DNA of 64,000 nt, from assembly GCA_030062745.1 (NCBI GenBank), contig CP099852.1, positions 20,916,266-20,980,265 on the forward strand, in the 5' to 3' direction. Positions 15,927 through 51,836 of the stretch are shown in pieces. The notes under the pieces are model-generated. The model did not search any database, was not told the origin of the DNA, and saw only the letters and a list, made by a program, of their open reading frames with translations. A program made the translations under genes and the position numbers. The DNA is from Capitulum mitella (taxonomy: Eukaryota > Arthropoda > Thecostraca > Pollicipedomorpha > Pollicipedidae). Each line of letters begins with the position of its first letter. The first letter of the stretch is position 1.

Positions 15927-17307
15927 TCACTTCCTCCGGCGCGTTTTGCCTTCGACAACGGTGGCAGCGGACTGAGCCGGACCGCGCGTCAGGCCGGACA
16001 GCCGGACGGCAGGGACCGGACAGCAGGGGCCGGACAGCCGGCAGGGGGGCCGGACAGCAGGGGCCGGACAGCAGGGGCCGACGGCAGTCAGCCGTCTGCC
16101 GGCTCTCGACCCGGGCTGGGGAGAAAAATACGAAATGTCCGGTCTGGCGGTGGCAATGCGATCCGAATATATCTCCGGTAAGACTGCTGCACATTTGGTA
16201 AGCATCTTCTGTTTAGGGACACAGTCATACCAGCTTCAGATCATAAGACAATGCGGGTCCAGTGAACGAGTGCACGAATTCCATTGCTTCATTGTTCTAG
16301 GAAGCACGCGGCCACTATTTGCATGCGTTCACTTGCGAAACAGCAGAGATCCACAGTCAATGTTTATCTTCCTTACCCGCCTATCTCGCCGATCCTGCCA
16401 GAAGCAGTGCCGCTTGCTGCGGCCGAAGCCGAAATGCAGCCCGGCCTGCACGAGAAGGCCCGCATGCTGCGGAAGCTCCGCCCGTCCGGTGAGACGAGAC
16501 GGTGCTGCACTTCCTCATGACAGCACAAGACGGCCATCTCGGCCGGTCTCCAGCGGGTAAACTGCCTGCTGGGCCGACCGGCGGCCGCCTGCTGGCCGGG
16601 CTGCTGCTGCCGGCTCTGGTATACTTCCCCAGGCGCCAGCACCTGCTCCGCCCGAGCCGCCATGTAGTACGGCCGCAGGGCCTCCATCTGGGAACACAAA
16701 TCGAACGGCCGGGCGTCAACATCACCGCTCGCGCTCAGGTGCAAGGCTCGACTCGGGCAGTAATTAACGCTTAGTGACGGACTCACGGTACGAAGAATTT
16801 CCCCGCCCCCTTCAGCCAGTGCTTACAATCCTGATGCCGGTCACTTCCTCCACCGCCACTACCGGACCGGTGGGGAACGGCATGATTCCCGCTGGTGGCT
16901 GCCGGCGACACACAATCAATGACGTCAACATCAGAGGAACAATGGTCGATCGTTTCATCTGACTTGAGATGTGGTGCCTGTATACCTTGTCGTCCACCAC
17001 ACAAATGGAAACAGACAGAGAGGTGATGATGGCGGCACTGCATGCATTGTGCTTTCATCAACAAAACTTATGGAAAATTGGCGTGTGTCTTCCAAACGTG
17101 AAACATTTTGTTGAGGCTTTAACAATAGCTTCCAATTGTTCTATGCACTTATCGGGGCGACCGGCATCGGCGCTCCTTCCGCGGGCTGGAACAGGGCGCC
17201 GGGCGGACCGTGGGGCTAAAGCGCCGGCTGGCCGACCCGTCCGAGGACGACGGACTCCCGCCGGGCCAGACGGGGTCCGGGGCGCTGGACGGGCCGGGCG
17301 GCGGCTC
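15927..17307 (-). pseudogene. YR-like gene copy A: 3' exons only
   Basis: Four minus-strand exons match the 3' part of the repeated gene: proline-rich 17153-17307 (starts EPPPGPSSAPDPVWPGGSPS), a 72-bp exon 16827-16898 (PPAGIMPFPTGPVVAVEEVT), the Myb-like exon 16377-16687 (MEALRPYYMAARAEQ...), and a terminal exon 15927-16115 (starts PGSRAGRRLTAVG, stop at 15927). Damage: the proline-rich exon has lost its donor (ATAAGT where other copies have GTAAGT) and its length is out of frame; the Myb-like exon has a one-base loss after RSMRAF compared with 18535-18852. The terminal exon is the only one in the window that stays open, the others reading TGA at the fourth codon. No upstream catalytic exons belong to it. 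Confidence 0.7.
15975..16085 (-). repeat. CCGGACAGCAGGGG minisatellite within terminal exon
   Basis: About seven imperfect units of roughly 14 bp. On the minus strand they read GPCCPAPAVRP-like peptides in the open frame of the terminal exon. The same repeat follows the Myb-like exon at 17930-18250 and 41806-41876. Confidence 0.7.
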
Positions 17308-17929
17308 CTGCGGCGGCATTCGTGCAAAAACATGAACAAACTCCCAAAGCTATTACAGGTATTACAACACCTCTAACGAATATAGCTTGTTCACAGGCAT
17401 CGAAAATGGTTTCGTCCTGTATTGTCGCGTATTTTGTCCGTGATTTATCGTTAGATGCACCGTTATGCCGGCGGCAGATCACGCGACGATTAGATCAGGC
17501 GACAATTTGATTTTAACACGCTAACCATCACCCGTCGGCCGGCGTCGAAGAGCGCGCTCTCCGGCTCGGACTCGGCGCCACACCAGGTTTTGCGGCGACC
17601 AGTTCCAGAAGCGAAGGCGGCGGCGGTGACAACCCCCTCTGCTGTGGCGGTGTAGGCGACGGTGGCGGCGGTGGCGGCCCCCGCTGCTGTGGCGGTGGAG
17701 GCGACGGGGCGGCGGCAGTGATCCGTGTCGATAAGACGCGAGCCGGGTGTTTGCGCACTTACGTGGCGCATTCTGTGGCTTTCAGTATGAAACACGGTCT
17801 GCCGCGAGAAGGCAGCCACAACAGACCGCGTCTCCGTTTTTCCTTACCCAGAACTGAGTCCCCTGCCCGTGGCGGAACGGACCGAGCAGACGAAACTGGG
17901 GATGAGCCGCTCCGCACGCCGTCAGCCCG
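17308..17929. other. Intergenic, GGC/CCG triplet-rich patch
   Basis: GGCGGCGGTG-type triplets at about 17610-17715 leave several frames open. It lies between gene copies A and B on the minus strand. No exon supported. Confidence 0.4.
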
Positions 17930-18258: not shown

Positions 18259-21200
18259 TCACGACCCTGGCTGGGGAAAAGTGCGAAATGTTACGTCTGA
18301 TGGTAAAAATGCTCTCCCAATGAATCTCCCGTCAGATTGTTCTGTGTTCATCTCGTCATGTTTTCTTTAGGGCTACAGCCATGTACCACCTAGAGGTCAT
18401 GCGATATCTGGGTTCCAATGAACAATTTAACGGATTCTAGTGCTTTGTTGTTCTCGGAAGCAAGCGAACAATATTCGCGTGGGCTCAACTGTAAAAGCAC
18501 ACACATTCAAAGCCACAATGTTTCTGTTCTTTACCTGCCTATCTCTCCGGCGCCGCCGGTACCAATGCTGTTCAGTCCGGCCAAAGCTGAAGTATAGCCC
18601 GGCCTGCACGAGGAAAGCCCGCATGCTCCGGAAGGTCCGCCCGTCCGGAGACACCAGGCGGTGCTGGACCTCCTCGTGCCAGCGCATGACGGCCATCTCG
18701 GCCGGGCTCCAGCGGGCGTAATGCCGCCCGCTGGGCCGACCGACGACCGCCTGCTGGCCGGGCTGCTGCTGCTGTCCGCTGCTGTAGGTGTCACCCGGCG
18801 CCAGCCCCTGCTCGAGCCGAGCAGCCTCGTAGTAAGGCTGCAGGGCCTCCATCTGGGAACATAAGCCGAAACGCCGGACATCAACATCACCGCTCGCGCT
18901 CCGGTGCAAGGTTCGACTCAGGCTGTAATTAACGCTTAATGGTACGCTGTATAGTATGGGTATGCAGTATGTAGGTACATGGTACGGGTAGGTAAAGGGC
19001 TCACGGTACAGAGCATTCTCCCCGCTCCCTGCAACCACTACTTACGATCCTGATGCCGGTCGCCTCCTCCACCGCCACCACCGGACCGGTGGGGAATCGC
19101 ACGATTTCCGCTGGTGGCTGCCGGCGACATACAATCATTGACTTCATTATCAGTGACACAACAATCGTCTGTTTTTCGTGTGACTTCAGTTGTGGTTCTC
19201 GCTTACTTGGTAGTTAATCACACAAACGGAAACCGACTAAGAGATAATGACAGCAACATTACATGCATTGTTTTTCATGCATAGGAGAGCTTAAAGAAAA
19301 TTACGGTGTGTCTGAGAATCGCAGAACGTTTTCTTAGGTCTTTGATGAATTCCTTCACGACTGTTGTTCTTTTCACTTACCGTGGCGACCGGCATCGGCG
19401 CTGCTTGAGCGGGCTGGGGCGTGGCGCCCGACGGGCCGGGCCGCGGCGGGCCGGTAGCCGCTGCCCAACCGCGGGCGGCCGCCACGGTAGCGGCGGCGGG
19501 CCACGCGACGGGCTCAGGCGGACCGGCGGGCTGCGGCGGGTCTCGGCTGCAGGCCAGCGGGCAACACCTCGGGCTGAGGCAGGCCGACAGGCTGCGGCGG
19601 ATAGGCGAGCTGAGGCGGGCTGCGGCGGGTCCTCACCAGGGCCACCAGGAGGCTGTTCCGGGATGGCCGACTCGTCCGAGGAGGACCCCGGACTCCCGCC
19701 GGGCCACACGGGGTCCGGAGCGCTGGACTGGCTGGGCTGCGGCTCCTGCGGGCAAAGTCAGAGACCGACCGTTTGTATTCAGGCGATACGGTACATGTCA
19801 GACACCGGCCCGCACGCAAAGGACACTGGTCATGGAGCACTGCTGCCGCCATAATGCGCACGACATTACCGCTGACCAAAACCATGGATTCATTACGACC
19901 TGGATTAGTAGCTGGCGTTTCGCCGTTTTGCCAGTTGGCAAAACGGCGAAAGGGCCTTTATCCGAAGAAATCGCTGGGTTTTCTTAGCCCAGTTTTCGGA
20001 TGCCAGAGGTGAAGACAAATTTAACGAAGGCATCTATCTCTCTTCGATCTCAAACAGCCATCACTCTTTGGCCGCCGAAAAGGCTGGGCTTTGCCACCCG
20101 AAACCCCGTAACAAATGCTGCACAAGAGAACGCGGCCAGGACCGAGCTGCGCTACAGAGACGGGTCGTTCCAATTCCCGAGGATTCTGTTTCGCCCCCTT
20201 CTACTGATGCGATGTAGCTAAGTCACTACTCGGCTCCAGCAGCTCGACTGGAAGCCAGCTGGAAGCCAGCCAAGCCACGACACCGCAGCGCGCCCGCAAA
20301 AAGACGCCCGCGCCTGCGACACGAAGACAAACAATGCGTCTCGTACGCCAGGGCTGCGGATTGCTTTGACAATTCATCGGCACGTGCGTGTTGGCCCAGA
20401 CAGCAAACCCGCGCGCGGACACCGAGCGCAACGTACCCTCTGTACGCGGCGTTTCAATGGCCACGGCCAACGCAGAATGGCCGACGCAACAACTCGACGG
20501 AGACCGGACTATTCGATCGCTCGTCGGAGCTCGACGTTCGCTCGTCACTAACCGGATTTGTGTTGTCTCCTGAGACCGACCAGGCCCTCCGCCACCTGCG
20601 CGAACTGGCGCGTCACGGCCGCCGACCGCAGCGTCCACGCCGACTGGGTGACGCGACTGCAGAAATGCTGCAGGGCCCTCATCAGCCGCAGGCCGTTGAA
20701 GGGCTGGACCCTGAGCATTCTCGCAATCGCGCCGAACACCTGTCGGCAGAAAGAGTACGTCTCGGAAAACGGCCGGCCCGCGGCCGCTGTCCGGCGCGCA
20801 ATACAGTCACGCCGCGCACAGAACGCGCGCGCAAAAACTTGGCGTCACGCGGACACCGCCACTGTTCAAACGGGGATTATCGTGCCGTGAGAAAAATTGA
20901 AGGCAACTACATTTCCCCGCTGCCGCGGCAGTCGACTCACCGCTGCGGTCGACGTCTGATCGCAGGCGATGTGGCGCCAGTCGTCGTCGCCGCCGCCGAC
21001 GTCGGCCAGCCGCAGCAGCTGGCTCAACGCCTGGCTGTTGGCCAGCTGCTGCTGCTGGTACTGAAAACAGAGAACCGCCTTTCAGCACGAGGTGCCGCTC
21101 GCGCAAAGCGTGACGACTCGTCTCGCTGGACCGCGGACACTGCCGGCCGTCTGTACGCAAGCGGGCTGGCTCGAGTGCCGAGGCTCGACGACGCTTTTTC

Positions 21201-22990
21201 GTCACGCGGCCGGTTACCTGTGCCAAAAGCTTGCCGCAAAACGCGACACCATTACCACCGCCGTCAGGTGCGCGTGCGACTCACCGTGCCCGTGTGCCGG
21301 TACAGGTCGTTTTCCACGCCGTCCAGTCGCAGAGACGCGGCAAGGACCCGTTCCGGCAGCGGCTCGCCGGACAGCTGTGCCTCCTCCTCCTCCAGCTCCT
21401 GCGCACGGCGCCGCACCCGAATCGCTTCCTGCGAACACGCGCCGGTCGTCAGTCGCCTCCTCGCGGACGACCAAATAGCTCACGGAGCAGCTGCACGAGG
21501 CAAGGCACAGGGCGCACTGCGGCACGTGCGCGTCGGCGCGTCGAGCTCAGGCATTCAAGCGCGTCACGGCGCCGACCACTGACGCGCGCCGTCATTGTCT
21601 GTCGTCTGTGGACCCCATGGCCGTAACAAATCCGATGTAAAACCGCTGGCGATTCGCAGAAAACAGGACCAGCCAAGACGGCAGCAGCCAATACGGCGCT
21701 CACTCACGTTGATGCGATCGATGGTCTTCTCGTGCACAGGAGCGGAGAGTTCCCTTGCCGCCGCCTCCGTCATGGCTCGCAGGCACTGCGGCGCACGTGA
21801 AGGTTGGCGCGTCACTATTCACAGTCAGCACCTTGCGCGCGGCCACCTGACAGCCGACGGCGCGGACGGCCACAGAGGGTATACCTGTATAGGAATCTGC
21901 AGATGAGGCACGAGTAGTTTCACGGTGCAGCAGCCACCAGCGACGTTTCCGACATTCAGATTACAGCTATGCTCGGAAATTTAGAGCTCAATGGCCTTCT
22001 GGACATCGGCACGCATGCACAGCTCGATGAATTTTAAATGCGGCACAAAGATAATTTTTTCGGACGCGCTCGGCCGGCGGTGGACGTTTCCGGATCGGGT
22101 GGATCATTTCAGCGACGCGCTCACCTGTCGCTTTGTCTTAACAAGGTGCGCGCAAACAGCTCCTGCTGCCGCACCTGCCGCCCCTGCTCCGGGTGCACGC
22201 GCCGCACGTGGCTCTGACAGCTGCGCAGCCCGTTGCGGCCGGCACCGAACCAGACGGTCGGCCGGCACAACGGGCAGCGCACCTCCACGCTGAAAACGCA
22301 CAGCAGCGCGTCAGCCACCGTCCAATGTCCGACCGTGCTCGTCCATCAAGAACAACACAACGTTTTTCGGATGGCGATCGCTCTTCCGACGGTTCCGACT
22401 GCCACTGTCTGCGTTTACGCCATTATAACACGTGAGTTTGTTATTGGATCTCTTCCGCTCTGCCGAGAACGAATGGTGACTCACCGGTCGGCGGCGGCGT
22501 GTCGGTACAGGCGGCGGCGGCGGCGGCGGCGGCGGAAGTAAATTCCGGGCCACAACCCACCGTGGTGCGGCAGCTTGCTGCTGCCGTGATGCCCCAGGCC
22601 GGGTGGACGGCGCCTGGCGCGCCGCCGTGGCGGGGCCGGCCGGCCTCCAGTCCCGGCGTTGGGCGGGCGCCACGGGTTGGCGCGGTTGCGTGCCGCCGGG
22701 GAAGACCCGCACGCGCACGCGCAAACGCCGGGCCGCTCGCTGCGCCGGGCTGAGTACTTGGCCGCCAGCGGCCGGCCGCAGCAAGCTGTCCGCCGATGGT
22801 CGGGCGAGCCCGCTGGGCTCAAGGCCGGGCCGGCGGCGCGAGAGCCCGGACGGCCTCTGGCTGCGCCGGCTCTTCGCCAGCGAGACAGCCAGGCCGTCCG
22901 GGCCAGAGGCCGGGAGCTGCTGCTCCCAGGCGGTGGGGCGTCGGCGCCCTCTCTCTCCATTGCTTGTCTGTGGACGTCGACGACAGAAAT
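18259..22990 (-). pseudogene. YR-like gene copy B: N-terminal and 3' exons
   Basis: Minus-strand exons in order: proline-rich about 22480-22990; C2H2 finger 22125-22289 (CPLC..., then CQSHVRRVHPEQ); a small exon ending 21718 with MTEAAARELSAPVHEKTIDR; 21285-21428 (144 bp, EAIRVRRRAQELEEEEAQLS); 20941-21060 (120 bp, YQQQQLANSQALSQLLRLAD); 20577-20739 (163 bp, VFGAIARMLRVQPFNGLRLM...); proline-rich 19381-19745; 19046-19117 (72 bp); Myb-like 18535-18852 (318 bp, ending RRRRRDRQ before GTAAAG); terminal-exon start 18270 with TGA after three codons. All catalytic-domain exons (equivalents of 38632-39991) are missing between 20577 and 19745, and the proline-rich exon is 365 bp, breaking the frame found in the 405-bp homologue. 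Individual exons look well kept; the copy as a whole cannot encode the recombinase. Confidence 0.75.
22125..22289 (-). CDS. C2H2-type zinc-finger exon of copy B
   Basis: The 165-bp minus-strand exon has an acceptor TTTTCAG and a donor CAG/GTGAGC. It reads EVRCPLCRPTVWFGAGRNG, then LRSCQSHVRRVHPEQ and LFARTLLRQSD. CPLC and SHVRRVH supply the Cys pair and His pair of a finger with a long Cys-His loop. N-terminal fingers of the type CPxC...HLxRVH are usual in animal tyrosine-recombinase-like proteins. This is the only complete finger of the family in the window; the plus copy at 32.54 kb keeps just the His half. Confidence 0.65.
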
Positions 22991-23465: not shown

Positions 23466-23672
23466 AGAACGACCTGCCGCCCGACCCGCCATGTGGTACG
23501 GCCGCCGGGCCTCCATCTGGGAACATAAGCCGAACGGCCGGGCATCAACGTCACCGCTCACGCTCAGGTGCAAAGCTCGAGTGGGGCAGTGATTTGCGCT
23601 CCATGACGGGCTCACGGTACGGAGCACGTGCCTGCGGGGCTCCTTCGGGGCTGCCGCGGCAGCAGCAGCCTC
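23466..23672 (-). pseudogene. YR-like gene fragment (fused exon remnants)
   Basis: On the minus strand the start of the second proline-rich exon (acceptor CCGCAG, EAAAAAAAPKEPRRH, from 23672) runs directly into what is intron upstream of the Myb-like exon in other copies, then into the first 50 bp of that exon (MEARRPYHMAGRAAG, 23466-23516). A deletion removed most of the proline-rich exon and the 72-bp exon. It belongs with copy C (30.1-31.2 kb), from which it is separated by the retroelement at 24901-29383. Confidence 0.65.
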
Positions 23673-24900: not shown

Positions 24901-25087
24901 TGGTTGGTTGGTTATTGGGGCTTAGGGGCGCACCGACTGCAGGGTCATTCGGCGCCCATAACTTCTTCAAGTAGCTCCATTAAAAAGAGTCACGACAATT
25001 AATAAAATCCGACGGCGTAATATAACGCAATTATGTCAAGACAAAAAAGTTACCTACAACAGCATACACAAAATAAAACACATGTGA

Positions 25088-30130: not shown

Positions 30131-31166
30131 CTGCAGGACCACGCGCCGGAAGACGAGGGCGTACCCGTGTACGCGCTCCTGGTGGCCGTGGGCGCTGCAG
30201 TGCCGCTCGGCCGTCTCGGTGGAGTGAGCACGGACCTCAGCGGCCGTGGCGGCGCTGAAGCCCGGCAGACGGCCGGCGGCACGGAGTTGGCGATCCTGGC
30301 AACAGCGACGCCCACCTTCAGTTCAGTCACGGCCACGGCAGTCGGCTCTAGCGTGTCAGTCACGGCTGACCATGCGCGCGGAAAGAACTGCGAATGCGGC
30401 TTTCGCGGCCACGGCTCAACGACACCCGAACACAACACACAAACACACACACGGACAAACGGAACGCGCCCAGAAGACCGACGGCGATCACTGAACGCGC
30501 CGAGAAAGTGCGCAGTGCAACGAACGTTTGTCATTTTTGCGAATCAGCAGCAGCAGAGAGACGTGGTGCAAACAGAGGGCGTGTACGCAGATCTGGTGCA
30601 GTGCACGTGGTTGTCGAACTCGTGACCTGTCGGGGCGCCGGCCCCAGCCCCGGCTCGGCGGCGGCAGCCTGCAGGGTGGCGTCCAGGACGACGATGGACG
30701 TCCTGACGCCGGGCAGCACGGCCTGCGTCGCGCCTGCAGCACGGAGCGAGGGCGACGACGGGTCATACGCAACGCAGGGAACACCGTCTCGCGCAGTGCG
30801 TCGATATGCCTTCTGCATTTCCTGGCATCGTGTCGTGACACGTTGCCCTCATTCGTCCGCCGTAGCGTCCGGCAGCCTTCAGGCGTCCGACCGTACGCGC
30901 GGAAACTGACCACCGTGCCGGCCGGCTATCGAGCCACTCGGGACGGCTTTGATGAAGAACACACTGCACGTCACCGCCAGGAGACCCTGGGCGAAGGAGC
31001 TCTCATCTCACCTGCGGGTTCGGCGTGACTGACGAGGGGTCGGAGCACACCCATGAAGAACTGAAGTGCGCTCCAGACCTACTCCGTCACAACGACCAGG
31101 ATCTGCCCGACGTCCTGCACACCGTGACCACGACCAGCTGCATCCACCGTCATCTGTCTCACGCGC
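30131..31166 (-). pseudogene. YR-like gene copy C: catalytic exons, decayed
   Basis: Minus-strand exons matching the recombinase domain of the plus copy: 31012-31166 (Lys-box exon, fused to the 60-bp minisatellite and carrying an indel, so the SKTLG lysine segment is gone although VVVTEWVW is still readable in another frame), 30627-30733 (AVLPGVRTSIVVLDATLQAA, 107 bp instead of 155, ending 16 codons early at a CAG/GTCACG donor) and 30131-30262 (132 bp, GFSAATAAEVRAHSTETAER then HCSAH). In the last exon the acceptor CAG has become CCG, and the predicted nucleophilic Tyr codon TAC has become TGC (Cys). The downstream exons lie beyond the retroelement at 23.5-23.7 kb. The copy is clearly dead as a recombinase. 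Confidence 0.75.
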
Positions 31167-32538: not shown

Positions 32539-35395
32539 GTGCAACTTCCAGCACCACGTGCGGCGCGTGCACCCGGAGCAGGGGCGGCAAGTGCGGCAGG
32601 AGCTGTTTGCGCGCACCTTGTTAAGACAAAGCGACAGGTGAGCGCGTCGCTGAAATGATCCACCCGATCCGGAAACCTTCACCGCCGACCCAGCGCGCCC
32701 GAAAAAATTATCCTCGTGCTGCATTTGAAATCCAGCGAGTTGTGCATGCGTGCCGGTGTCCAGAAGACCATTGAGTTCCAAAGTTCCGAGCATAGCTGTA
32801 ATCTGAATGTCGGAAACGTCGCGGGTGGCTGCTGCACCGTGAAGCTACTCGTGCCTCGTCTGCAGATTCCCATGCAGATATACCCTATGTGGACGTCCGC
32901 GCCGTCGGCTGTCAGGTGGCCGCGCGGAAGGTGTTGACTGTGAATTGTGACGCGTCAACCTTCACGTGCGCCGTAGTGCCTGCGAGCCATGACGGAGGCG
33001 GCGGCCAGGCAACTCTCAGCTCCTGTGCACGAGAAGACCATCGATCGCATCAACGTGAGTGAGCGCCGATTGGCTGATGCCGTATTGGCTCGTCCTGTTG
33101 TCTGCGAATTGCCAGCGGTTTTGCATCGCATTTGTTCCGGCCATGGGGTCCACACCAGACGACACAACAGACGACAGACAATAACGGCGCGCGCCAGTGA
33201 TCGGCGCCGTGACACGCCTGAATGCATGAGCTCGACGCGCCGAGACGCACGTGCCGCAGTGCGCCTTGTGCCTTGCCTCGTGCAGCTGCTCCGTGAGCTA
33301 TCTAGTGGTCCGCGAGGAGGCGGCAGCTGACGACCGGCGCGTGTTCGCAGGAAGCGATTCGGGTGCGGCGCCGTGCGCAGGAGCTGGAGGAGGAGGAGGC
33401 GCAGCTGTCCGGCGAACCGCTGCCGGAACGGGTCCTTGCCGCGTCGCTGCAGCTCGACGGCGTGGAAAACGACCTGTTCCGGCACACGGGCACGGTGAGT
33501 CGCACGCGCACCTGACGGCGGTGGTAACGGTGTCGCGTTTCGAGACAAGCTTTTGGCACAGGTAACCGGCCGCGTGACGAAAAAGCGTCGTCGAGCCTCG
33601 GCACTCGAGCCAGCCCGCTTGCGCACAGACGGCCGGCAGTGTCCGCGGGCCAGCGAGACGAGTCGTCACGCTTTGCGCGAGCGGCACCTCGTGCTGAAAG
33701 GCGATTCTCTGTTTTCAGTACCAGCAGCAGCAGCTGGCCAACAGCCAGGCGTTGAGCCAGCTGCTGCGGCTGGCCGACGTCGGCGGCGTCGACGACGACT
33801 GGCGCCACATCGTCTGCGACCGGACGTCGACCGCAGCGGTGAGTCGACCGCCGCGGCAGCAGGCAAATGCAGTTGCGTTCAATTTTTATCACGGCACGAT
33901 AATCCCCGTTTCAACAGGGACGGTGTCCGCGTCACGCCGTTTTTGCACGCGCATTCTGAGCGCGGGGTGACCGCCGTACCGCGGCCGCGGGCCGGCCGTT
34001 TTCCGAGACGTACTCTTTCTGCCGACAGGTGTTCGGCGCGATTGCCAGAATGCTCAGGGTCCAGCCCTTCAACGGCCTGCGGCTGATGAAGGCCCTGCAG
34101 CATTTCTGCAGTCGCGTCGCCCAGTCGGCCTGGGCGCTGCGGTCGGCGGCCGTGACGCGCCAGTTTGCGCAGGTGGCGGAGGGCCTGGTCGGTCTCAGGC
34201 GGCAGCACAAATCCTGTTAGTGACGAGCGAACGTCGAGCTCCGACGAGCGATCGCAATAGTCCGGTCTCCGTCGAGTTGTTGCGTCGGCCATTCTGCGTT
34301 GGCCGTGGCCATTGAAACCCCGCGCACAGAAGGTGCGTTGCTGCGTGCTCGGTGTCCGCGCGCGGGCTGTCGGGGGGCCGACGCGCACGTGCAACAAAGG
34401 ATGTAAGATGATGACTACGGATGAACTGTGCCCTGTATTCAAAGCAATCTGCAGCCCTGGCGCACGAGACGCATTGTCTGGCTTCGTGTCGCAGGCGCGG
34501 GCGTCTTTGCCGGCGGGTGCGATCGGGTGGCGCGCTGCGGTGTTGTGGCTTGGCTTTGTCCAGTCCAGCTACTGGAGCCCAGTAGTGATTTATGTACATG
34601 GCATCGTCAGCTCGGTCCTGGCCGGGCTCTCGTGTGCAGTATTTGTCATGGGGTTTCGGGTCGGCAAAGACCGCCTTTTGCAGCGGCCGAAGAGCGATGG
34701 CTGCTTGAGATAGATGCCTTCGTTAGATTTTTCTTCACCGCCGGCATCCGAAAACTGGGCTTAGAAAACGCAGCCATTTCCTCGGATAAAGGCCCTCTGA
34801 TAAATGCCAGTCGTTTTCAGATGACTCTGACAATAGTTTCACTTCTGCCTCTGATCATACATCGAATGACATGACACGTAGCAAAGCAGGCCTGATACAG
34901 ACGGACGGGTACTTGTCGTGCAGCTTGCATGATTACTGCCATGAACAGCAGTACAGAAATGCACCAGAAGACCCGTCCTGCGGGCATTGTTACTTTTACT
35001 TGCATGCGGTGCTCACTACGTGCGTGCAACGTGTCGTGACGTCAGAGATTCGTTGAAGGCTGTAGTTTCTTTCGCCCGAGCTGCTTTAATCCGCAATGTC
35101 TGGCGTGCATACGATCCGGAACAACGCGGGGATTCATCTGCCGTGTATTTCATGTTGCCAGCTTCTTTCGCTCAGGAGCTAATGCATTTTGCCGTTCTGA
35201 AGCCGAACTGAAACAACGCAGCGCTTTTGCAGAGATCGACCAGGCCATGGCGCGCCGGCAGGACGCCAAGCGCGACCCGCGCCTTCAGTTCGGCCTGGAG
35301 GAGCGGGTCGCCATTGAGGACGTCTGCCAGCGCTTCTTCCAGCGGCACAGCTGGCCGGAGCCGCCCACCGCGCCGTCCAGAGACCTGGCCGTCAG
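32539..35395 (+). pseudogene. YR-like gene copy P1: N-terminal exons
   Basis: Plus-strand exons: half of the finger exon about 32539-32637 (CNFQHHVRRVHPEQ; the CPLC half is missing), a small exon 32977-33054 (MTEAAARQLSAPVHEKTIDR), 33351-33494 (144 bp, EAIRVRRRAQELEEEEAQLS), 33719-33838 (120 bp, YQQQQLANSQALSQLLRLAD), 34029-34191 (163 bp, VFGAIARMLRVQPFNGLRLM...) and 35233-35395 (163 bp, EIDQAMARRQDAKRD...). Phases fit: the fifth ends with one base and the sixth begins with two. These would be the coiled-coil and helical DNA-binding region in front of the catalytic domain. The expected next exon (88 bp) is missing: after a TG repeat the sequence jumps to the first proline-rich exon of the next copy. 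This is the mirror image of copy B. Confidence 0.75.
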
Positions 35396-35625
35396 GTTCA
35401 GAGACAAAGTGTGACGATGTCGACTGTGCGCGCCATCCGGCCGCCGGTGGGCGCACATTCGTTACCCGTTTTGTGGTATCGCCGGCTTGCGCTGCGCGGA
35501 TCTCCGGTGCGTTCGACGCGGACAGCTGGCGCGGCGGCAAACGGTGATCAATAGAGCGGCCATTGCGCCGCGCTCGTCGACCGACCGCCGACTAATGGCC
35601 GCCCGCCACAGACCGCGGCGCTCTC

Positions 35626-36468: not shown

Positions 36469-36472
36469 GCCC

Positions 36473-37044
36473 GACCATCGGCGGACAGCCCGCGGCGGCC
36501 GGCCGCCGGCGGCCGACTTCTAAGTCCGGCGCAGCGAGCGGCCCGGCGTGTGCGCGTGCGCGTCTTCCCCGGCGGCACGCGACCGCGCCAGCCCGTGGCG
36601 GCCGCCGATCGGCGCGACCGGAGGCCGTCCGTCCCAGCCCCGGCAGCACGCCAGGCGCCATCCGCCCGGCCTGGGACATCAGGGCAGCGGCAGGCTGCCG
36701 CACCACGGCGGGCCGTGGCCCGGGATTTATTTCCGGCGCTGCCGCCGCAGCCGCGGCCGCCACGGCCGCCGCCGCCACCGCTGCCGCTGGCACGACCGCG
36801 GCCGCCGCCGCCGCCGCTGCGGCTGGTACGGCCGCGGCCGCCGGCACGGCCGCGACCGCCCCCGCCGCCGCCGCCGTCGCCGTGGCGGCCGGAGCGGAGT
36901 GAGCTCGGCGACACGCGGCCCGCAGCGGCCCGCCGGCTGGTGTTTCCGCCGGCACCGCCGCCGCCGCCGCCGCCGCCGCTTTCGCCGCCGCCGCCGCCGC
37001 CGAAGACGCCTTCGCCGCCGCCGCCGCCACCGCCGAAGACGCCT

Positions 37045-37094
<50 letters not shown>

Positions 37095-37430
37095 GCCGAA
37101 GACGCCTTCACCGTCGTCGCCGCAGCCTCCAGCGCCGAAGACGCCTTCGCCGCCGCCGCCGCCACCGCCGAAGACGCCCTCGCCGCAGCCGCCGCAGTCT
37201 CCACCGCCGAAGACGCCGCCGCCGCCGCCCCCGCCGCCGTATCCCCCGTCTCCGCCTCCATCGTCGGAGACGTCTTCGCCGAAGACGCCACCGCCGCCGC
37301 CGCCGCCGCCGCCGCCGACGACGGCCCCTTTGCCGCCGGCAGAGCGCCATCTTCCGTCGTCGTCGCAGCCGGCACGGGCCCTGTCGCCTCTGGTCGCCTC
37401 TGGTCGCGAAGACTGGACGCGGGGTCCACA
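36473..37430 (+). repeat. First proline-rich exon with CCG expansion (copy P2)
   Basis: From 36473 the sequence matches the proline-rich segment of copy B (shared VRVFPGGT...PRQPV, and later GLGH.GS..LPHHGG.WPGIYF in another frame). Copy B has one short run of about nine CCG/CGG triplets; here CCG triplets with CCGAAGACGCC interruptions run from about 36950 to 37330. One plus frame reads PKTPSPPPPPPPKTP-like repeats. All six frames stay open for hundreds of codons, so the true coding frame is not decided. No clear splice donor was found. Confidence 0.6.
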
Positions 37431-38577
37431 GACGACAGACAATGGCGGCGCGCGTCAGTGGTCGGCGCCGCGACACGCCTGAATGCCTGAGCTCGACGCG
37501 CCGACGCGCACGTGCCGCAGTGCGCCTCGTGCCTTGCGTCACGCGGCTGCCTCGTGAGCTATTTGGTCGTCCGCGAGGAGACGGCTGACGATCGGCGCGT
37601 GTTCGCAGCAAGCGATTCGGGCGCGGCGCCGTGCACAGGAGCTGGAGGAAGAGGAGGCACAGCTGCCCGGCGAGCCGCTGCCGGAACGTGTGCTCGCGGC
37701 GTCTGTGCGGCTGGACGGCGCCGATAACGATGTCTTCCGGCACACGGGCACGGTGAGTCGCACGCGCACCTGACGGCGATGGTAATGGTATCGCTTTTCG
37801 CGACCAGCTTTTGGCACGGGTAACCGGCCGCGTGACGAAAAAGCGTCGTCGAGCCCCGGCACTCGAGCCAGCCCGCTTGCGTACAGACGGCCGGCAGTGT
37901 CCGCGGTCCCGCGAGACGAGTCGTCACGCTTTGCGCGAGCGGCACCTCGTGCTGAAAGGCGATTCTCTGTTTTCAGTACCGGGAGCAGCAGCTGGCCAAC
38001 AGCCAGGCGCTGAGCCAGCTGCTGCGTCTGGCCGACGTCGGCGGCGGCGACGACGACTGGCGCCACATCGTCTGCGACCGGACGTCGACCGCAGCGGTGA
38101 GTCGACCGCCACGGCAGCGGGCAAATGCAGTTGCGTTCAATTTTTCTCACGGCACGATAATCCCCATTTGAACAGGGGCGGTGTCCGGCGACCAGGCCAT
38201 GGCGCGCCGGCAAGACGCCAAGCGCGACCCGCGCCTCCAGATCGGCCTGGAGGAGCGGGTCGCGATTGAGGACGTCTGCCGGCGCTACTTCGAGCGGCAC
38301 AGCTGGCCGGACCCGCCCACCGCGCCGTCCAGAGAGCTGGCCGTCAGGTTCAGGGAGTAAGTGTGGCGATGTCGACTGTGCGCGCCATCCGGCCGCCGGT
38401 GGGCGCACATTCGTTACCCGTTTTGTGATATCGCCGGCTTGCGCTACGCGGATCGCCGGTGCGTTCGACGCGGACAGCTGGCGCGGCGGCAAACGGTGAT
38501 CAATAAAGCGGCCATTGCGCCGCGCTCGTCCACCGATCGCCGACCAATGGCCACCCGCCATGGACCGCGGCGCTCTC

Positions 38578-38607: not shown

Positions 38608-38631
38608 TTATGCTCGGTATGCGTGCTTCAG

Positions 38632-39009
38632 GATGCTGTACATCGCAATCTCCAACCTGAGCGGCCTGCGGACTGGCGCGGTGGCCGGCACAACCCTGGC
38701 GGAAATGGCCGCAGGGCAGGTACGTGTCTCGACGCGCGGTCCGTGTGATTTGTCGCGGCGCGCGCCGCAAACGGATGCAGGCTCTCGCGTGTCGACGGCA
38801 GCGGCATCACGCAGCGCAATGTCCGTCTTTCCCTTGGCAGATGCGCGAGGTGGACGGCGAGGTGAGCTGGTCGTGGTACAACACGGCCAGCAAGACGCTG
38901 GGCAGCCGCGGCAGGGTACTCGTCGTGGTGACCGAGTGGGTCTGGAGGGCGCTCCAGTACTTCGTGGGCGTGTTCCGACCCCTCCTGCTGAGCCAGACGG
39001 AGCACTCAG
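38632..39009 (+). CDS. Catalytic exons with Arg I and Lys of the YR-like domain
   Basis: Exon 38632-38719 follows GCTTCAG and reads MLYIAISNLSGLRTGAVAG, then TTLAEMAAGQ before GTACGT. Exon 38841-39009 follows TTGGCAG and reads MREVDGEVSWSWYN, TASKTLGSRGRVLVVVTEWV, then RALQYFVGVFRPLLL. This is the beginning of a tyrosine-recombinase catalytic domain: the Arg of the (T/S)GLR.G motif, then the beta-hairpin Lys (SKTLG) and a conserved ..RP element. The same pattern (RTGAV, HKT, RP) occurs in recombinase-like proteins encoded by Crypton-like elements and their relatives in animals. Donor, acceptor and phases agree. Confidence 0.7.
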
Positions 39010-39301: not shown

Positions 39302-39991
39302 CCGCGACACAGGCCGTGCTGCCCGGCGTCAGGACTTCGACCGTCGCCCTGGACGCCACCCTCCAGGCCGCCGCCGCCGAGCTGGGGCTGGGGCCGGCGC
39401 CCCGGCTCGTCGGCCGCTTCATCGGCAGCCGCAACAGGGCGTCCCAGAAAATCATGGTGAGTGGACAGGCATGAGCGCAACAGCCGCGTGCTATGCACTA
39501 GATGTGCGCGGTACGTCCTCTGTCTGTGCGTGTGCGTGTTTGCAACACGTCTTTCTACGATACCGTTGATTCGCGGAAAAAAACGTGCATTGCGCTGCGC
39601 ACTTTCTTGCGCGTCCACTCATCCATGGCAGTTTTCGGAGTGCGTTCCGCTTGTGTGCGTGCGTGCGCGGTTGTGTGCCAGTGTTTGGATGTCGTTGAGC
39701 TAGCGTCGCAAAAGCCGCATTCGCAGTTTTTTCCGTACGCATGGTTCGTCCTGACTCACACTCCAGAGCCGACTGCCGTGGCCGTGACACGCCTCAGGAA
39801 TGAACGGTGGGCTTCGCTGTTGACAGGATCGCCAACTCCGTGCCGCCGGCCGTCTGCAGGGCTTCAGCGCCGCCACGGCCGCTGAGGCCCGTGCGCACTC
39901 AAAGGAGACGGCCGAGCGGCACTACAGCGCCCACGGCCACCAGGAGCGCGTGCATGGGTACGCCTCCGCCTTCCGGCGCGTGGTCCTGCAG
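39302..39991 (+). CDS. Catalytic exons with box II and Tyr of the YR-like domain
   Basis: Exon 39302-39456 (acceptor GCTGCAG, donor ATG/GTGAGT) reads AATQAVLPGVRTSTVALDAT and ends NRASQKIM. Exon 39860-39991 (acceptor TCTGCAG, donor CAG/GTGAGC) reads GFSAATAAEARAHSKETAER, HYSAHGHQERVHGYASAF and RRVVLQ. The AHS..TAERHY block is the usual (G)HS..T...Y nucleophile region, and VRTST would be the second Arg. The His of the canonical HxxR is not conserved here (PGVR), so the box II assignment is less sure than the Tyr. Confidence 0.65.
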
Positions 39992-41182
39992 GTGAGCGCG
40001 GTGGTGTCTGCTGCCGGTTGTCACCAGTGGTCAAACTGTCAACGGGCAAAAGGACGAAACGCCGGCTACTAATCCGGGTCGTAATGGATCCATCGTTTTG
40101 TCAGCGGCAATGTCGTGCGCATTATGGCGGCAGCAGTGCTCTCCGTGACCAATGTCCTTTGCGTGCGGGCCGGTGTCTGACATGTACCGTATCGCCTCAC
40201 TGGCAACGGTCGGTCTCGGACTTTGCCCGCAGGAGGCTGCTGCTGCCGCAGAAGCCTCGCAGGAGCCGTAGCCCGGCCCGTCCAGTGCCCCGGACCCGGT
40301 GTGGCTCGGCGGGAGTCCGGGGTCCTTCTCGGACGGGTCGGACAGCCCGGAAGAGCCTCCTGGTGGCCCTGATCACGACTCGCCGCAGCCCGCCGGCCCT
40401 CCGCCGCAGCCCGTGGCGTGGCCCGCCGGCCCTCCGCCGCAGACCGTAGTGTGGCCCGACGGCCCTCCGCCGTAGCCCGTAGTGTGGCCCGCCGCCCCGC
40501 CGCAGCCCGCCGCGTGGCCCGTCGCCGCCACCGTGGCGGCCGCCCGCGGTTGGGCAGCGGCCGCGGGCCCGCCGCAGCCCGGCCCGTCCGGCGTCCCGCC
40601 CCTGCCCGCTCAAGCAGCGCCGATGCCGGTCGCCACGGTAAGTCAAAAGAACAACAGTCGTCAAGAAATCTCATGAAAGCGCTGAGAAAACGTTCTACCA
40701 TTGGCAGACACAACATTATTTTCTTAAACCTCTCTTATGCGTGAGAAACAATGTATGAAGTGTTCATGTCATCATCTCTTGGTCGGTCTCCATTTGTGTG
40801 ATGAACTACAACGTATACGAGAACCACACCTCAAGTCAAACGAAAAACAGACCATTGTCAGTGTCACTAATGTTGACGTTAATGATTGTGTGTCGCCGGC
40901 AGCCACCAGCGGGAATCGTGCGATTCCCCACCGGTCCGGTGGTGGCGGTCGAGGAGGCGACCGGCATCAGGATCGTAAGTAGTGGTCGCAGGGAGCGGGG
41001 AGAATGCTCTGTACCGTGAGCCCTTTACCTACCCGTACCATATACCTACATACTGCATACCCATACTATACAGCGTACCATTAAGCGTTAATCACTGCCC
41101 GAGTCGAACCTTGCACCGGAGCGCGAGCGGTGATGTTGATGCCCGGCGTTTCGGCTGGAGTTTCTGGAGTTTATGTTCCCAG

Positions 41183-41500
41183 CTGGAGGCCCTGCAGCCT
41201 TATTATGAGGCTGCTCGGCTCGAGCAGGGGCTGGCGCCGGGCGAGTTATACAGCTGCCGGCAGCAGCAGCAGCCCGGCCAGCAGGCGGTCGCCGGTCGGC
41301 CCAGCGGGCGGCATTACGCCCGCTGGAGCCCGGCCGAGATGGCCGTCCTGCGCTGGCACGAGGAGGTCCAGCACCGCCTGGTGTCTCCGGACGGGCGGAG
41401 CTTCCGGAGTATGTGGGCTTTCCTCGTGCAGGCCGGGCTATACTTCAACTTCCGCCGGACGGAACGGCATTGGTACCGGCGGCGCCGGACAGATAGGTAG
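41183..41500 (+). CDS. Myb-like C-terminal exon of the YR-like gene
   Basis: This 318-bp exon is present at five places (16377-16687 minus, 18535-18852 minus, 23466-23516 minus in part, here, and about 50897-51218 plus). It starts LEALQPYYEAARLEQGLAPG, has a Gln/Gly/Pro linker, then RWSPAEMAVLRWHEEVQH, SPDGRSFRSM and ERHWYRRRRTDR. The Trp...Glu..Ala...His spacing and the final basic R.W/Y..RRR helix resemble the Myb/SANT-like C-terminus of other animal recombinase-like proteins, such as the one at 45.8-47.9 kb (RAWHEAEKAAVLRPF). That family link is an inference. Here the last codon before the donor is TAG where copy B has CAG. Confidence 0.55.
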   Translation: MEALQPYYEAARLEQGLAPGELYSCRQQQQPGQQAVAGRPSGRHYARWSPAEMAVLRWHEEVQHRLVSPDGRSFRSMWAFLVQAGLYFNFRRTERHWYRRRRTDR

Positions 41501-41805
41501 GTAAGGAACAGAAACATTGTGGCTGTGAATGTGTGTTCTTTTACAATTGAGCCCACGCAAATATTGGCCGCTTCCTTCCCAGAACAACAAAGCACTAGAA
41601 TCCGTTAAAATGTTCATTGGAACCCAGTAAGCGCATGACCTGTAGATGGTACATGACCGTGCCCCTAAAGAAAACATGACGAGATGAAGACGAGACAGTC
41701 TGACGGGAGATTCCTTGGAAGTGCATTTTCACCATCAGACCTAACATTTCGCACTTTTACCCAGCCAGCGTCGTGAACAGCCGACGGTTGGCTTCCGTCC
41801 AGCCC

Positions 41806-46802: not shown

Positions 46803-46848
46803 AGCACTTGCCACCATGCACGAGGAAAGATGCACTTGCCACCATGCC
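46803..46848 (+). repeat. Local direct duplication in the decayed recombinase gene
   Basis: GCACTTGCCACCATGC occurs twice about 27 bp apart and shifts the reading frame after STRALATM. A likely duplication-type mutation. Confidence 0.7.
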
Positions 46849-47196
46849 CCAGCTTCCTCCAGTTGCAAAAGATGTACAAAAAGTGCAGAACATTCTGAAC
46901 GGAAAAATGTGGGCAGCAAAGATAGCCAATGAAAATGGGGGATGCACCCAAAATGTTTTCAAGAGCTGGCTCAAGAACTACTAGCAAAAATTATTCCGTT
47001 CAACAGATGGCGTCAGGGTGAGGTTGCACGCCTTAAAGTAACACCTTTCATTGAAAGACATACCATGAACTTCAATCCGATATTCTGGCTTCTCTTAGCA
47101 AAAGCGAACAGTACCTCTGCTCATCTCTGACACGAGTTGTCACAAAACGTAAACGTACACGACTTGTACCGGTCCTGATGACAGCCGAAATGAAAT

Positions 47197-47236
47197 CGTA
47201 GATGTACTCATAGATGTACATGTAGATGTACTCATC
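47197..47236 (+). repeat. 12-bp GTAGATGTACTC/CATAGATGTACA repeat
   Basis: Three GATGTAC units interrupt the catalytic domain of the decayed recombinase gene between the VLMTAEM and box II segments and add stop codons. Confidence 0.7.
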
Positions 47237-47930
47237 ACGAAAAGAAACGGAGTTGTCAAGCGTAAAAGCAATCGTTACGTCCTCGTAAGCCCATACTCGC
47301 TGACCGGTGAACCGTTCCGTGGAAGTGATTCCATCAGGAAGTTTGCAATGCTCTGTGGAGCCCGGCACCCAATGACCCTTTGGTCTACTAAGCTTCGAAA
47401 GCAGATCGGAACACTGTCGCAAATTTTAAGTCTAAAGGAAAACGAGTTGGATTTGCTTGCGAGGTTCATGGGCCACAGCGTTCGGGTTCACAGGGCTATC
47501 GGCTATCGTCTCCCGGAGCAAGAATTGCAAATCGCAAAAATGGGAAAACTGCGTATGGGTCTCGATAGAGGGATCACTTCTTATGCAGGAAAAAGTCTCG
47601 ATGGCATCCAGATCTTTGAGTCTCAACGGAAGGATGGAGATGGTGGTGATCACGACGACCCTTCTTTGCCCTTCTCAGCTAGTCAGTATCCAAGTGGTCC
47701 CCAGGCTAGTGAAACCACTCAGAGTCGTTCCGATGACGGAAGCGTTTTTCTTCCCAAAAAGCGTGCTCGTAACAAGAGAGCTTGGCATGAAGCCGAAAAA
47801 GCAGCCGTCTTACGTCCATTCAAAACGAAATTGGATACCTTGACAACAACAAACAAGGAGGAATGTGCAAGAGCCATCAGTTCTGAGTCCGTTTGACAAG
47901 AACTGGACGTTAAATATTGCTTATAACATG

Positions 47931-50159
47931 ACAGTATGTAAGCGTCGAAAAATGCAATAACAACCAAACCCTGACATCTTCTGGTGTCAGCGTTGGACGT
48001 TTTGATGGCAAAACTGCCATGTTGTTAAATATCTCCTTGGTGTTTAAAAAATCGTAACACATACTGAACGTTTTTCTGCAAAAAGTACTACCATTCCTAG
48101 CATTATTCAGTTGTCTGCAATACTGATTACTGGCAATATTGACCTGCCTTATCCATTTCTTACTTGGGGTTAAGCTATTTTTAGTGAGATTTTGGATGGT
48201 TCAGAGTTAACAAATTTGGTTGCGCTGACGGTCTACCACGGGTAACACCCGTCATCAACCGTATGCAAATAAGCCTTGATCGCAACAAAGATCTCGTGAA
48301 CTCTGCTGTTAGGAGTGCGATGGTCGGTGTTTTTTGTAGCGTACGTAAAGGATTTACTTTCCTCGTAATGAGCACAGATTAGAGTACTTCAGCAGAAAAA
48401 CATTAATCACCTTGCAATTAAAAAAAAACTGAAAAATCTAAACATGCAGAAATCACGAGAAATCTGTTTCCTTGTGGCGCTGATGAGACGCAGCGTTCTT
48501 AGTTTTCCTAGGTATTTATTCCTTTGCAGATTTCCACTGTCTGTAAAACCAAAAGTGATGGCACCTTCAATTTACGCCTTGTTTGGGACTGCGTAAGTTG
48601 ACAAGTCTGTCTTACAATACTAAATCGTGTTTAATTTTCCAGGTCAGAATCCACTGTTGCCAGCATGCATGGCGGCAAAACACTTCCTTTAACTTGACCA
48701 TTTTGAGCGGTTTTGCTGCCACAGAAGAGAACAAGTAACTTTGTCGGTCTCCTGGTGGTTGATCAAATGATGCTCATTGCAAAAGCGATGCTTTATTAGA
48801 CCCATTTACGTTCGTTGATCTCACTACCATTTAAAACTAATCTCATGTAGCTGACTTTGCATTAGATGAAACCCATTTTTAGACATAATCTCTTGGTTAA
48901 AAGTTCAGGTCTCTTGGGACATGCAAATCTTCTCATGAACCCTTTGCGTGCGACTGATGAACCTCGCAAGAAACTGTAGTTCGTAAACTTCCCCGCTGGT
49001 AAACAGTCGCAATTGGTTATGGCCTGACTGCCTTTCTTCAGTGAACGCTGCAGCCATACTGAGCCATTCACTTCCGCTGTACGGATTACGGACAACGGAA
49101 CTGGATTTTGGGAGACGTATGGGATATGTTCACGTTTTTATCTACATTTCTGGCTCTTGGGTGGGACATTCATGCAAGATTTCGTTTCGACTCCTTCAGC
49201 CGCAAAATTATATAATTGTTGCTGGAGTAAGAGTACCTCTTTGAATAGGTTTTCATGGGCCGTTTCCTTGGACTACTGTTTTTACTTTTGACAACCTCAG
49301 CAACTTGTCAATTTCTCTCTCTCAACTCAACAATTTCTTTGACGAGCTACATGGTTTGGCGGTCACCTTGCGGGCATTTTCTTTTTTCTTCAGAGGAAGG
49401 AAACTTCTAGCTTCAGTATAAGATGTTATCGTCTCAGGTCCCCAAAGCGGTGACGTCATTAAATTAGGATTTCATTTTGTTTAAAAACAACCATTGGCTC
49501 GCAAAGCGGAAATCTTGAAGCCACTTGTGTTAGGAAGTCTGGCATACGACGTTTTGGCCTTCAAAGTCGTAGGAGTCGTGCTTTTATTAGAAGGAAAAAT
49601 TCAAATACAGAAGCCAGGGCAACGGGAGCGACTTGCAGCATCAACCATGAAATGGTTTCGAACACAGAATGCCGATAACAGAGTCCCACTGGACTTCTTT
49701 TGGCATGCAGATGTTTTCCTTGCGGTGTGTACCTTACCGTTCATATTTAAAAAAAAAATCGTTCAGCAGGCTAAATGTTAGAAAACTTTGCTTTACTGTC
49801 ATTATGTTTACGTGACACTTCACACGCGACGCTTCTGCGTTGATCCCTCTCGTTATGTGACGTTTTGGGGATACGCTTCTGTGTAGGACAAACCTTCGTG
49901 CTATGTTATAGGTCTGAAAAGCTTTTCATCCTCCAAAAGAGAGCCCTCCGCATGACTGAGTTTGTCTTTCCCCCTCAAAGCTCTGAGCCAATCTTTAAAC
50001 GTTAAAAATTTTGAAGCTTAAAGACCTTGCAAAATCGTTGCTACTTATATTAATGTACAACTTTTTACTCATCAGTTACCCTCGCCTTTCACTTTGTTGC
50101 CTGAGATAAAACGTCGCAAAACGTAGCAACGTACACACAGCTAGCCGCCAGTCCTGAAC
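47931..50159. other. No gene recognised
   Basis: AT-rich. Short frames only. No repeats or domains I can support. Confidence 0.4.
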
Positions 50160-51836
50160 AGCCCTCCCATCTCCCGCAACCCTCCACAACCCTCTGGCCC
50201 GTCGCAGCCCTCCGACCCGCCACAGCCCGCCGGCCCACCACGTGGCCCGCCGGCTTGGCGCAGCTCTCCGCCCACCACGTGGCCCGCCGGCTTGGCGCAG
50301 CCTTCCGGCCCGTAGGCCGGAGGCCTGGAGCCACAGCCCTGTGGCCCGTCGGCCCGTCGGCCCGTCGCAGTTCGCCGTGTGGCCCGCCGCCGCTACCGTG
50401 GCGGCCGCCCGCAGCTCGACAGAGGCTGCCGGCCCGCCACAGCCCGGCCCGTCCGACGCCCCGCCCCAGCGCCGATGCCGGTCGCCCCGGTAAGTGAACA
50501 GAACAGTCGAAAAATATAATCAAAGACCAAACAAAATGCATGCAGTGTTGCTATCATCATCTCTCAGTCGGTCTCCGTTTGTATGTTGAGCTACGAGGTA
50601 TACAAAAACCACACCTCAAGTCAAACAAAACAAAACGATCGACCATTGTCGTGTCACTGTTGATGACGTTAATGATTGTGTGTCGCCGGCAGCCACCAGT
50701 GGAAACCGTGCCGTTCCCCGCCGGTCCGATGGTGGCAGTGGAGGAGACAACCGGATTCAAGCAGTGGTTGCAGGGGGCGGGGGACATGTTCTGTACCATG
50801 AGCCCGCCATTAAGCATTACCTACTGACCGAGTCGAGCCTTGCGTTTGAATGCGAGCGGCAATGTTGACGCCCGGCCGTTCGGCTTATGTTCCCAGATGG
50901 AGGCCCTGCAGCCTATTATGAGGCGGTTCGGGCGGAGCAGGGTCTGGCGCCGGGTGACGTCTTCAGCAGCCGACAGCAGCAGCAGCCCGGCCAGCAGGCG
51001 GTCACCGGTCGGCCCAGCGGGCCGCATTACGCCCACTGGAGCCCGGTCGAGATGGCCGTCCTGCGCTGGCACTTGGAAGTGCAGCAACGCCTCGTCTCAC
51101 CGGACAAGCGGAGCTTCCGCAGCATGTAGGCCTTCCTCGTGCAGGCCGGGCTCCATTTCAACTTCCGATACACCGAGCGGCACTGGTACCGGCCTACGCG
51201 CGCCGGCGAGATAAGAGGGTCAGGAATAGAAACATTGTGGCTTTGGATCTCTGATGTTTCACAATTCAGAGCATGTGGAAATATTGGTTGTTTGCTTCCT
51301 ACAAAAACGGTGTACCTGAATTCGTCCGCTCGTTCATTTCACCACGATTGTCGTATGACCTTCAGCTGGTATGACTGTGCCCCTAAAAAAAGATGACGGA
51401 CCAAACACCATAAATGTCGCCATCTCCAGTCTCAGCGGCCTGCGGACGGCGCGGTGGCCGGCACCATGTTGGGCGGCCTGGCCACCGGCCAGCTAGGTGA
51501 CGTACGGCCGTGTAGTCAGCGCGCGTCGCAAATGGATGCAGCGCCGTCTTTCCGGCCGAGACGAACGCTTCCGCACCCGGCAACGTTTGCAAACGCATCA
51601 CGTCTTCGGATCACTGTCCCTAACAACGGCACCAGTTAGAGGTGGCGAAACAGACAAAACTCTCATGCCAAACCGCGTCTGGCTGCTGGAAGCGCAACAC
51701 AGCGCAATGTCCGTGTGTTGCTTCACAGGTGCGCGAGACAGACGACGGTGGAAACCGCTGCTTGCGGTACACCTCGGCCGGCAAGACGCTGGGCAGCCGC
51801 GGCAGGGTTCTCATTGTGGTGATCGAGTGGGTCTGA
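50160..51836 (+). pseudogene. YR-like gene copy D: rearranged and decayed
   Basis: Plus-strand exon remnants in unusual order: proline-rich 2 (about 50160-50489, donor CCCCG/GTAAGT), 72-bp-type exon from 50693 (PPVETVPFPAGPMVAVEETT; donor deleted), Myb-like exon about 50897-51218 (one-base deletion after CTGCAGCCT; TAG at 51127 in place of CGG/TGG), then the Arg exon about 51413-51492 (VAISSLSGLRT, one-base deletion, acceptor not recognisable, donor GT changed to CT) and the Lys-box exon 51729-51836 (VRETDDGG..., SAGKTLGSRGRVLIVVIEWV, then TGA). The 3' exons of one unit are thus followed directly by catalytic exons of the next, as expected from a tandem array with internal deletion. It is separated from copy P2 by about 8 kb that holds the other recombinase pseudogene. 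Confidence 0.75.

Follow-up and report, generated by a model that had tools for sequence, protein, structure and literature searches.

Recurring exons in the window

We analysed a stretch of 64,000 nucleotides from Capitulum mitella (GenBank assembly GCA_030062745.1, contig CP099852.1; C14:20916266-20980265, forward strand), referred to here as the window. It carries repeated, incomplete copies of an intron-rich coding family whose central part, the core, recalls tyrosine recombinases in the order and spacing of a few residues. Coordinates are those of the window; negative values and values above 64000 lie beyond it. The sequence covered comprised the window, 100 kb on each flank, eight samples of 10 kb at greater distances along this contig (spread between -500 and +564 kb) and one further 10-kb piece. 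Family copies were placed by self-BLAST, exon BLAST and tblastn with each exon. Copy K, located outside the window in sample L027, served as the reference for exon alignment.

Exon BLAST gave 37 raw matches in the window, two of which were antisense self-matches of exon e4 and were excluded. The remaining 35 family exon matches lie at six places on both strands: 22289-18531 (A), 16898-16371 with e9 pieces to 17312 (A') and 30131-31107 (E) on the minus strand, and 32541-35404 (B), 37609-41506 (C) and 50213-51846 (D) on the plus strand. The first-pass annotation had described one exon set recurring at six places on both strands. Self-BLAST and exon BLAST confirmed the places and the strands, but not the full sets: the window copies are partial mosaics, and none has every exon. 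Copy A lacks e4-e8, copy C lacks the fingers and e3, copy E consists of e6-e8 and copy B ends at e4. The individual features are the following.

16371..16689, minus: copy A' exon e11, split over two frames by tblastn
16828..16898, minus: copy A' exon e10
17153..17312, minus: copy A' e9 fragments
18531..18854, minus: copy A exon e11
19046..19117, minus: copy A exon e10, 72 bp
19381..19752, minus: copy A exon e9, Pro-rich, 95% covered
20553..20739, minus: copy A exon e3, 187 bp; e4-e8 unmatched in this copy
20941..21060, minus: copy A exon e2, 120 bp
21285..21428, minus: copy A exon e1, 144 bp
21708..21785, minus: copy A linker exon, 78 bp
22142..22289, minus: copy A finger-2 exon (VRCPLC...H...H)
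22485..22854, minus: copy A GC/Pro-rich first-exon region, homologous to K 1585-1926
23470..23672, minus: fragment with e9 start and an e11-like piece
30131..30295, minus: copy E exon e8, 165 bp; Cys replaces the motif Tyr
30631..30732, minus: copy E partial exon e7
31034..31107, minus: copy E partial exon e6; one stop within the matched stretch
32541..32620, plus: copy B finger-2 exon, 3' part
32977..33054, plus: copy B linker exon
33351..33494, plus: copy B exon e1
33719..33838, plus: copy B exon e2
34029..34215, plus: copy B exon e3
35233..35404, plus: copy B exon e4; donor lost (CAAAGT), stop codon spanning the e3/e4 junction
36469..37398, plus: copy C GC/Pro-rich first-exon region; no finger-exon match downstream
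37609..37752, plus: copy C exon e1
37977..38096, plus: copy C exon e2
38189..38356, plus: copy C exon e4 without acceptor; e3 and adjoining intron sequence absent
38632..38719, plus: copy C exon e5, SGLR motif (core R67)
38841..39009, plus: copy C exon e6, SKTLG motif (K101)
39302..39456, plus: copy C exon e7
39827..39991, plus: copy C exon e8, 165 bp, DRQLR...AHS.ETAERHY (R193, H215, Y224)
40233..40637, plus: copy C exon e9, Pro-rich, two in-frame stops
40903..40974, plus: copy C exon e10
41181..41506, plus: copy C exon e11, Trp-rich C-terminal piece
50213..51193, plus: copy D partial e9, e10 and e11 (internal stop)
51417..51846, plus: copy D partial e5 and e6
52693..52752, plus: small finger-1 exon match, 31% of the exon

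Gene model and splice borders

The fullest copy is K. Its eleven exons from finger 1 (x2) to e8 join in one frame with GT-AG at each border and one stop, in e4, confirming the compatible phases that had been proposed. The Pro-rich first exon of K ends at L027:2391. It is followed by x2 of 193 bp (VPCCCGKLF...HH), a finger-2 exon of 148 bp (VRCPLC...H...H), a linker of 78 bp, e1-e4 of 144, 120, 187 and 172 bp, e5-e8 of 88, 169, 155 and 165 bp, and then e9, e10 (72 bp) and e11. In the fuller copies the Pro-rich first exon and the two finger-like exons sit 5' of e1, and in copies C, G and K e9-e11 come after the core (e5-e8). The gene model has 15 exons and 14 introns and is best supported for finger 1 to e8 (eleven exons). 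An amplified, intron-rich coding family, the basic claim of the first-pass annotation, is supported, and its fuller copies carry two N-terminal finger-like exons.

Several borders had to be redrawn. The annotated lengths of 144, 120, 88, 169, 155 and 72 bp stand, but exons 3, 4 and 8 change and the length of exon 9 varies. Exon 3, annotated at 163 bp, is better read as 187 bp, with the donor gttagt in eight of nine copies and gtaagt in the ninth. For exon 4, also given as 163 bp, the donor in K yields 172 bp; the same position is GT in C and G and is lost in B. The acceptor of a 132-bp exon 8 is present in one of seven copies, and an acceptor 33 bp upstream (gacag/gccag), present in all seven, gives 165 bp. 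AG/GT borders hold in most copies, but the e6 acceptor is lost in two of five, the e7 acceptor in one of five and the usual e2 donor in one of nine.

Downstream of the core the frame is damaged. Copy K loses its reading frame in or after e9, and in copies C and G a stop interrupts the frame close to where e9 begins. Both ends of e9 are in phase 0 in copy C, and a transcript that skipped this exon would stay in frame. Finger 1 and half of finger 2 are missing from copy G.

The exons evolved as protein

With the copies aligned to K, each codon position offered 664 columns, of which 93 varied at position 1, 94 at position 2 and 168 at position 3 (Fisher p = 1.9e-9). Ten introns treated alike showed no bias (107/797, 93/793 and 92/788; chi-square p = 0.49). 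Overall, variation in the exons is higher at CpG sites than elsewhere, yet the third-position excess persisted once CpG sites were removed (53/442, 58/492 and 99/445; p = 1.3e-6). The family exons thus evolved as protein. Exon GC by codon position was 0.72/0.52/0.90. The pooled ratio of nonsynonymous to synonymous differences (pN/pS) was 0.41 over ten exons, with e8 taken in its 132-bp form; single exons gave values between 0.10 for e5 (a single pair) and 1.01 for finger 2. In 29 of 31 copy pairs the third codon positions are also more divergent than the introns (0.65-3.2 times the intron rate over the pairs), and CpG sites do not account for all of this.

Among exon copies from x2 to e8 that cover at least 85% of their exon, 2 of 72 contain stops, a count from which insertions were dropped, so that frameshifts are hidden. 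The joined K exons have one stop in the coding frame against eight and five in the other forward frames. One reverse frame of these GC-rich exons likewise holds one stop, so openness alone is weak coding evidence.

Motifs of the core and their spacing

The core carries R67 (SGLR), K101 (SKTLG), R193 (DRQLR), and H215 and Y224 (AHS.ETAERHY), with spacings of 34 (R-K), 92 (K-R), 22 (R-H) and 9 (H-Y). In Cre the corresponding residues are R173, K201, R292, W315 and Y324, giving 28, 91, 23 and 9, according to a portion of PMC4381057. The first-pass annotation had read SGLRTG, SKTLGS and AHSKETAERHY as recombinase motifs: their order and spacing are Cre-like, but the searches described below did not connect them to tyrosine recombinases by homology. 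It had also named PGVR as the box II Arg; this Arg, R150, sits 65 residues ahead of the motif His and is too far upstream. R193, the first Arg of DRQLR, fits the box II spacing and had been missed because exon 8 was cut short. Ile190 occupies the His position of HxxR.

The motif residues recur among the copies: in seven e8 copies the DRQLR Arg is kept in all, the His in six and the Tyr in six. A strict motif pattern matched all three full-core copies (K, C and G) and 14 of 20000 shuffles, and a loose one 194 of 20000, the patterns having been devised after the sequence had been inspected. What points to a tyrosine recombinase is solely this motif order and Cre-like spacing. They suggest tyrosine-recombinase ancestry for the core, which we put a little above an even chance.

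Extent and growth of the array

Family matches by tblastn run from -97.7 to +95.6 kb. The family resumes as copy K in L027 (~+176 to +184 kb), and a further e11 piece lies in L031 at ~+190 kb. One of the eight far samples holds the family (L027, +174 kb); matches in the other seven were judged chance only (best E 0.032). Weak e11-like matches in L025 and L026 were dropped as chance after six-frame reading.

Pairs of long interspersed elements (LINEs) excluded, and with a cut-off of 1.5 kb chosen by us, direct and inverted duplications of up to 5.7 kb, 86-98% identical, were found in 264 kb. For instance, 38189-43295 recurs in direct orientation at 76990-82106, and -11400 to -7754 is repeated in inverted orientation at 23226-19614. 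The duplicated blocks include neighbouring sequence: 46618-50229, which matches 90559-94186, carries an unrelated open reading frame (ORF) at 47153-47896. A 5' break near K 1585 and a 3' break near K 10230 recur in several copies, and the sequences outside these breaks fall into a few common classes. No target-site duplication was seen when the breaks were lined up, and no further test of this was made. Exons are separated from one another in the copies, with the exception of e2 and e3 at -96.46 kb, whose junction we read as a deletion and not as a retrocopy. Unequal exchange and inverted duplication explain the array better than independent insertion does.

Proposed reading: an amplified host gene with a divergent recombinase-like core

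We have established the coding history, the exon and phase structure, the clustering on the contig and the direct and inverted duplication blocks that bear the copies. For the locus as a whole we lean, modestly, towards an ampliconic local array of an intron-rich host gene with many broken copies, whose core would be a very divergent tyrosine-recombinase-like domain. It is a locally amplified, real gene family, so far an orphan and possibly recombinase-derived.

Under this reading the protein would run from a Pro-rich first exon through two finger-like exons, a linker and e1-e4, which look mostly helical by eye, to the core (e5-e8), a Pro-rich e9 and a Trp-rich e10-e11. The core would keep R-K-R-H-Y, with Ile at the His of HxxR, as a highly divergent recombinase-like domain. 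The motifs suggest a nuclear DNA-binding protein, the finger and Myb-like readings being without profile match. The fingers and the C-terminus may hold DNA, and the recombinase-like core may bind it, although it probably does not mobilise the gene that encodes it. The array may have grown by unequal exchange and by inverted duplication of blocks including neighbouring sequence.

Several results weigh against this reading. On the profile side of the refuting condition set in the first-pass annotation, the outcome went against a recombinase, the joined protein and its exons showing no profile or sequence similarity to tyrosine recombinases: searches of Pfam, PHROGs, NCBIfam, PDB and the protein database and the profile-profile comparison were all negative, and an exon-by-exon PF00589 scan of the whole assembly (477 Mb in 16 contigs) matched two other places and not the cluster. 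Smith-Waterman comparison of the copy G core with nine tyrosine-recombinase-like (YR-like) proteins gave z from -1.7 to 0.9; these proteins (P0001-P0008 and the 47153-47896 ORF) are YR-like by motif reading only and make a soft control. Single-sequence AlphaFold2 models e6 alone as one long helix (predicted local distance difference test, pLDDT, 80) and not as the hairpin expected around the Lys, a weak model built without an alignment. Finger 2 (pN/pS 1.01) and e8 (0.70) show little constraint. No family exons lie from +96 to +164 kb, a stretch that was read, so the cluster is not continuous. Finally, the 284 kb read within the cluster and next to it yielded no defect-free copy with all exons, and present function is therefore unproven.

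Other searches were also negative. Searches of a 5.8-billion-protein database, each scoring the ~8000 candidates with most words in common, found no relative. Profile-profile comparison with an alignment of P0001-P0006, P0008 and the 47153-47896 ORF (P0007 left out) gave no signal; the family alignment has an effective number of ~1, so this and the Smith-Waterman comparison have little power. Pfam returned no family at all for the core at E<=10, DUF3504 included, and Rfam no match over the window. In viral contigs 68 stretches matched a pattern and none was confirmed. The best PDB match, 6ywe chain 8 (mitochondrial ribosomal protein mL50, E 0.072), was set aside as composition. A narrow scan for the recombinase tail motif gave four matches, all in stop-filled frames; it missed the family too, and its result is uninformative.

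The ends of the protein fared similarly. The N-terminal finger of the first-pass annotation survives as two finger-like exons by Cys/His spacing, judged by eye, but zinc-finger Pfam profiles matched neither finger 2 alone nor the joined finger exons. The Myb-like C-terminus found no backing: the only Pfam match was DUF3653 (E 0.028, below its cut-off), and the AlphaFold2 model of the C-terminal exon from two sequences had no confident fold (pLDDT 55) and was not used. That e10-e11 form a folded domain is unproven.

Alternative explanations

The same amplified coding family could have a core that is not a tyrosine recombinase, with R, K, R, H and Y falling into place by chance in Arg/Ala-rich sequence. 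We rate this somewhat short of an even chance. Every profile test was negative, e6 is modelled as a helix and 194 of 20000 shuffles carry the loose pattern. The strict pattern, however, is rare among shuffles, the motif residues are kept in most copies, and the Cre-like spacing emerges only once exon 8 is corrected on splice-site grounds. If the core is not a recombinase, the locus still holds an intron-rich, locally amplified family with no relative found in the 5.8-billion-protein database. If it is one, it would be a domesticated recombinase that retains most motif residues in a gene with many introns, a kind we did not meet in the literature searched. Nor did that literature, which left most subscription papers outside its coverage, describe such a family. 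A family of this kind could pass for a repeat and escape gene annotation.

The array may also be a relic made up entirely of pseudogenes, its parent gene lying elsewhere or having been lost. We likewise put this somewhat below an even chance, and it fits either view of the core. K alone has all exons from finger 1 to e8, with a stop in e4 and the frame lost in or after e9, and copies G, A, C and B lack the exons listed above. Constraint is nevertheless still detectable among the copies, and the sequence read covers only 284 kb of the cluster and its surroundings.

A large, intron-rich Crypton-like mobile element, inserting by its own recombinase and nested here by chance, is unlikely. In its favour, several copies have the breaks near K 1585 and K 10230 in common, and missing terminal repeats would not exclude one, since animal Cryptons are described without them in a portion of the Crypton survey (PMC3212892). 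However, the flanks beyond the breaks fall into a few shared classes, as duplicated blocks predict, the long duplications extend into neighbouring sequence, and the family is missing from seven of the eight sampled pieces. Continued mobility, one option in the first-pass annotation, is not supported, as the copies lie within segmental duplications. That an active or recently active tyrosine recombinase, encoded by an amplified host gene of ~15 exons, uses R-K-R-H-Y on host DNA, for instance rearranging its own array in germline or soma, we consider very improbable.

Comparison with known systems

By motif reading, the candidate core resembles tyrosine recombinases (PF00589; Cre, XerD, lambda Int) in how its R, K, R, H and Y are ordered and spaced. 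It differs in that the family has no profile similarity to them, has Ile for the His of HxxR, and joins its core to finger-like and Pro-rich exons with 14 introns in the model.

Animal Cryptons (CryptonA and CryptonI in a portion of PMC3212892) resemble the family in having a possible recombinase core in an animal genome. The first-pass annotation had assumed that they end in a Myb-like domain; the part of the survey consulted gives them no C-terminal domain (PMC3212892). Here copies C, G and K continue past the core with e9-e11, and, unlike Cryptons, the family has finger-like exons and copies in segmental duplications.

The same portion of the survey describes genes domesticated from Cryptons that carry DUF3504: KCTD1, KIAA1958, ZMYM2/3/4, QRICH1 and WOC (PMC3212892). 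The likeness is one of proposed history, a recombinase-derived domain in a multi-exon host gene, in some cases with zinc fingers (PMC3212892). As described there, DUF3504 lacks most catalytic residues, whereas the family keeps four of five positions and the Tyr. The DUF3504 genes are also widely conserved in that account (PMC3212892), whereas the family has no relative found and no DUF3504 match in Pfam.

Neighbouring elements

The ORF at 47153-47896 (plus), within the duplicated block, has a YR-like tail by motif (STKLRKQ...GHSVRVHR...YRLPE). It has no Pfam match and eight related proteins (P0001-P0008), three from fish, at E 7.8e-28 and weaker. It resembles the amplified family in this tail (R...GH...Y) and has no detectable similarity to it by profile-profile or Smith-Waterman comparison. 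An open stretch in L025 (5600-6400, minus) resembles a PIF/Harbinger-type transposase.

From -100 kb to +164 kb the layout is ampliconic. This stretch contains four 500-N gaps, which adjoin the copies, and assembly trouble is possible. Self-BLAST match offsets revealed tandem arrays with periods of ~31 and ~60 bp at 12083-13314 and 31118-32027. A 4.5-kb LINE, 98-99% alike between copies, occurs at five places within 264 kb. Its window copies at 24905-29383 and 59051-63528 (minus) are 99% identical, and the former has endonuclease, reverse transcriptase and RNase H domains.

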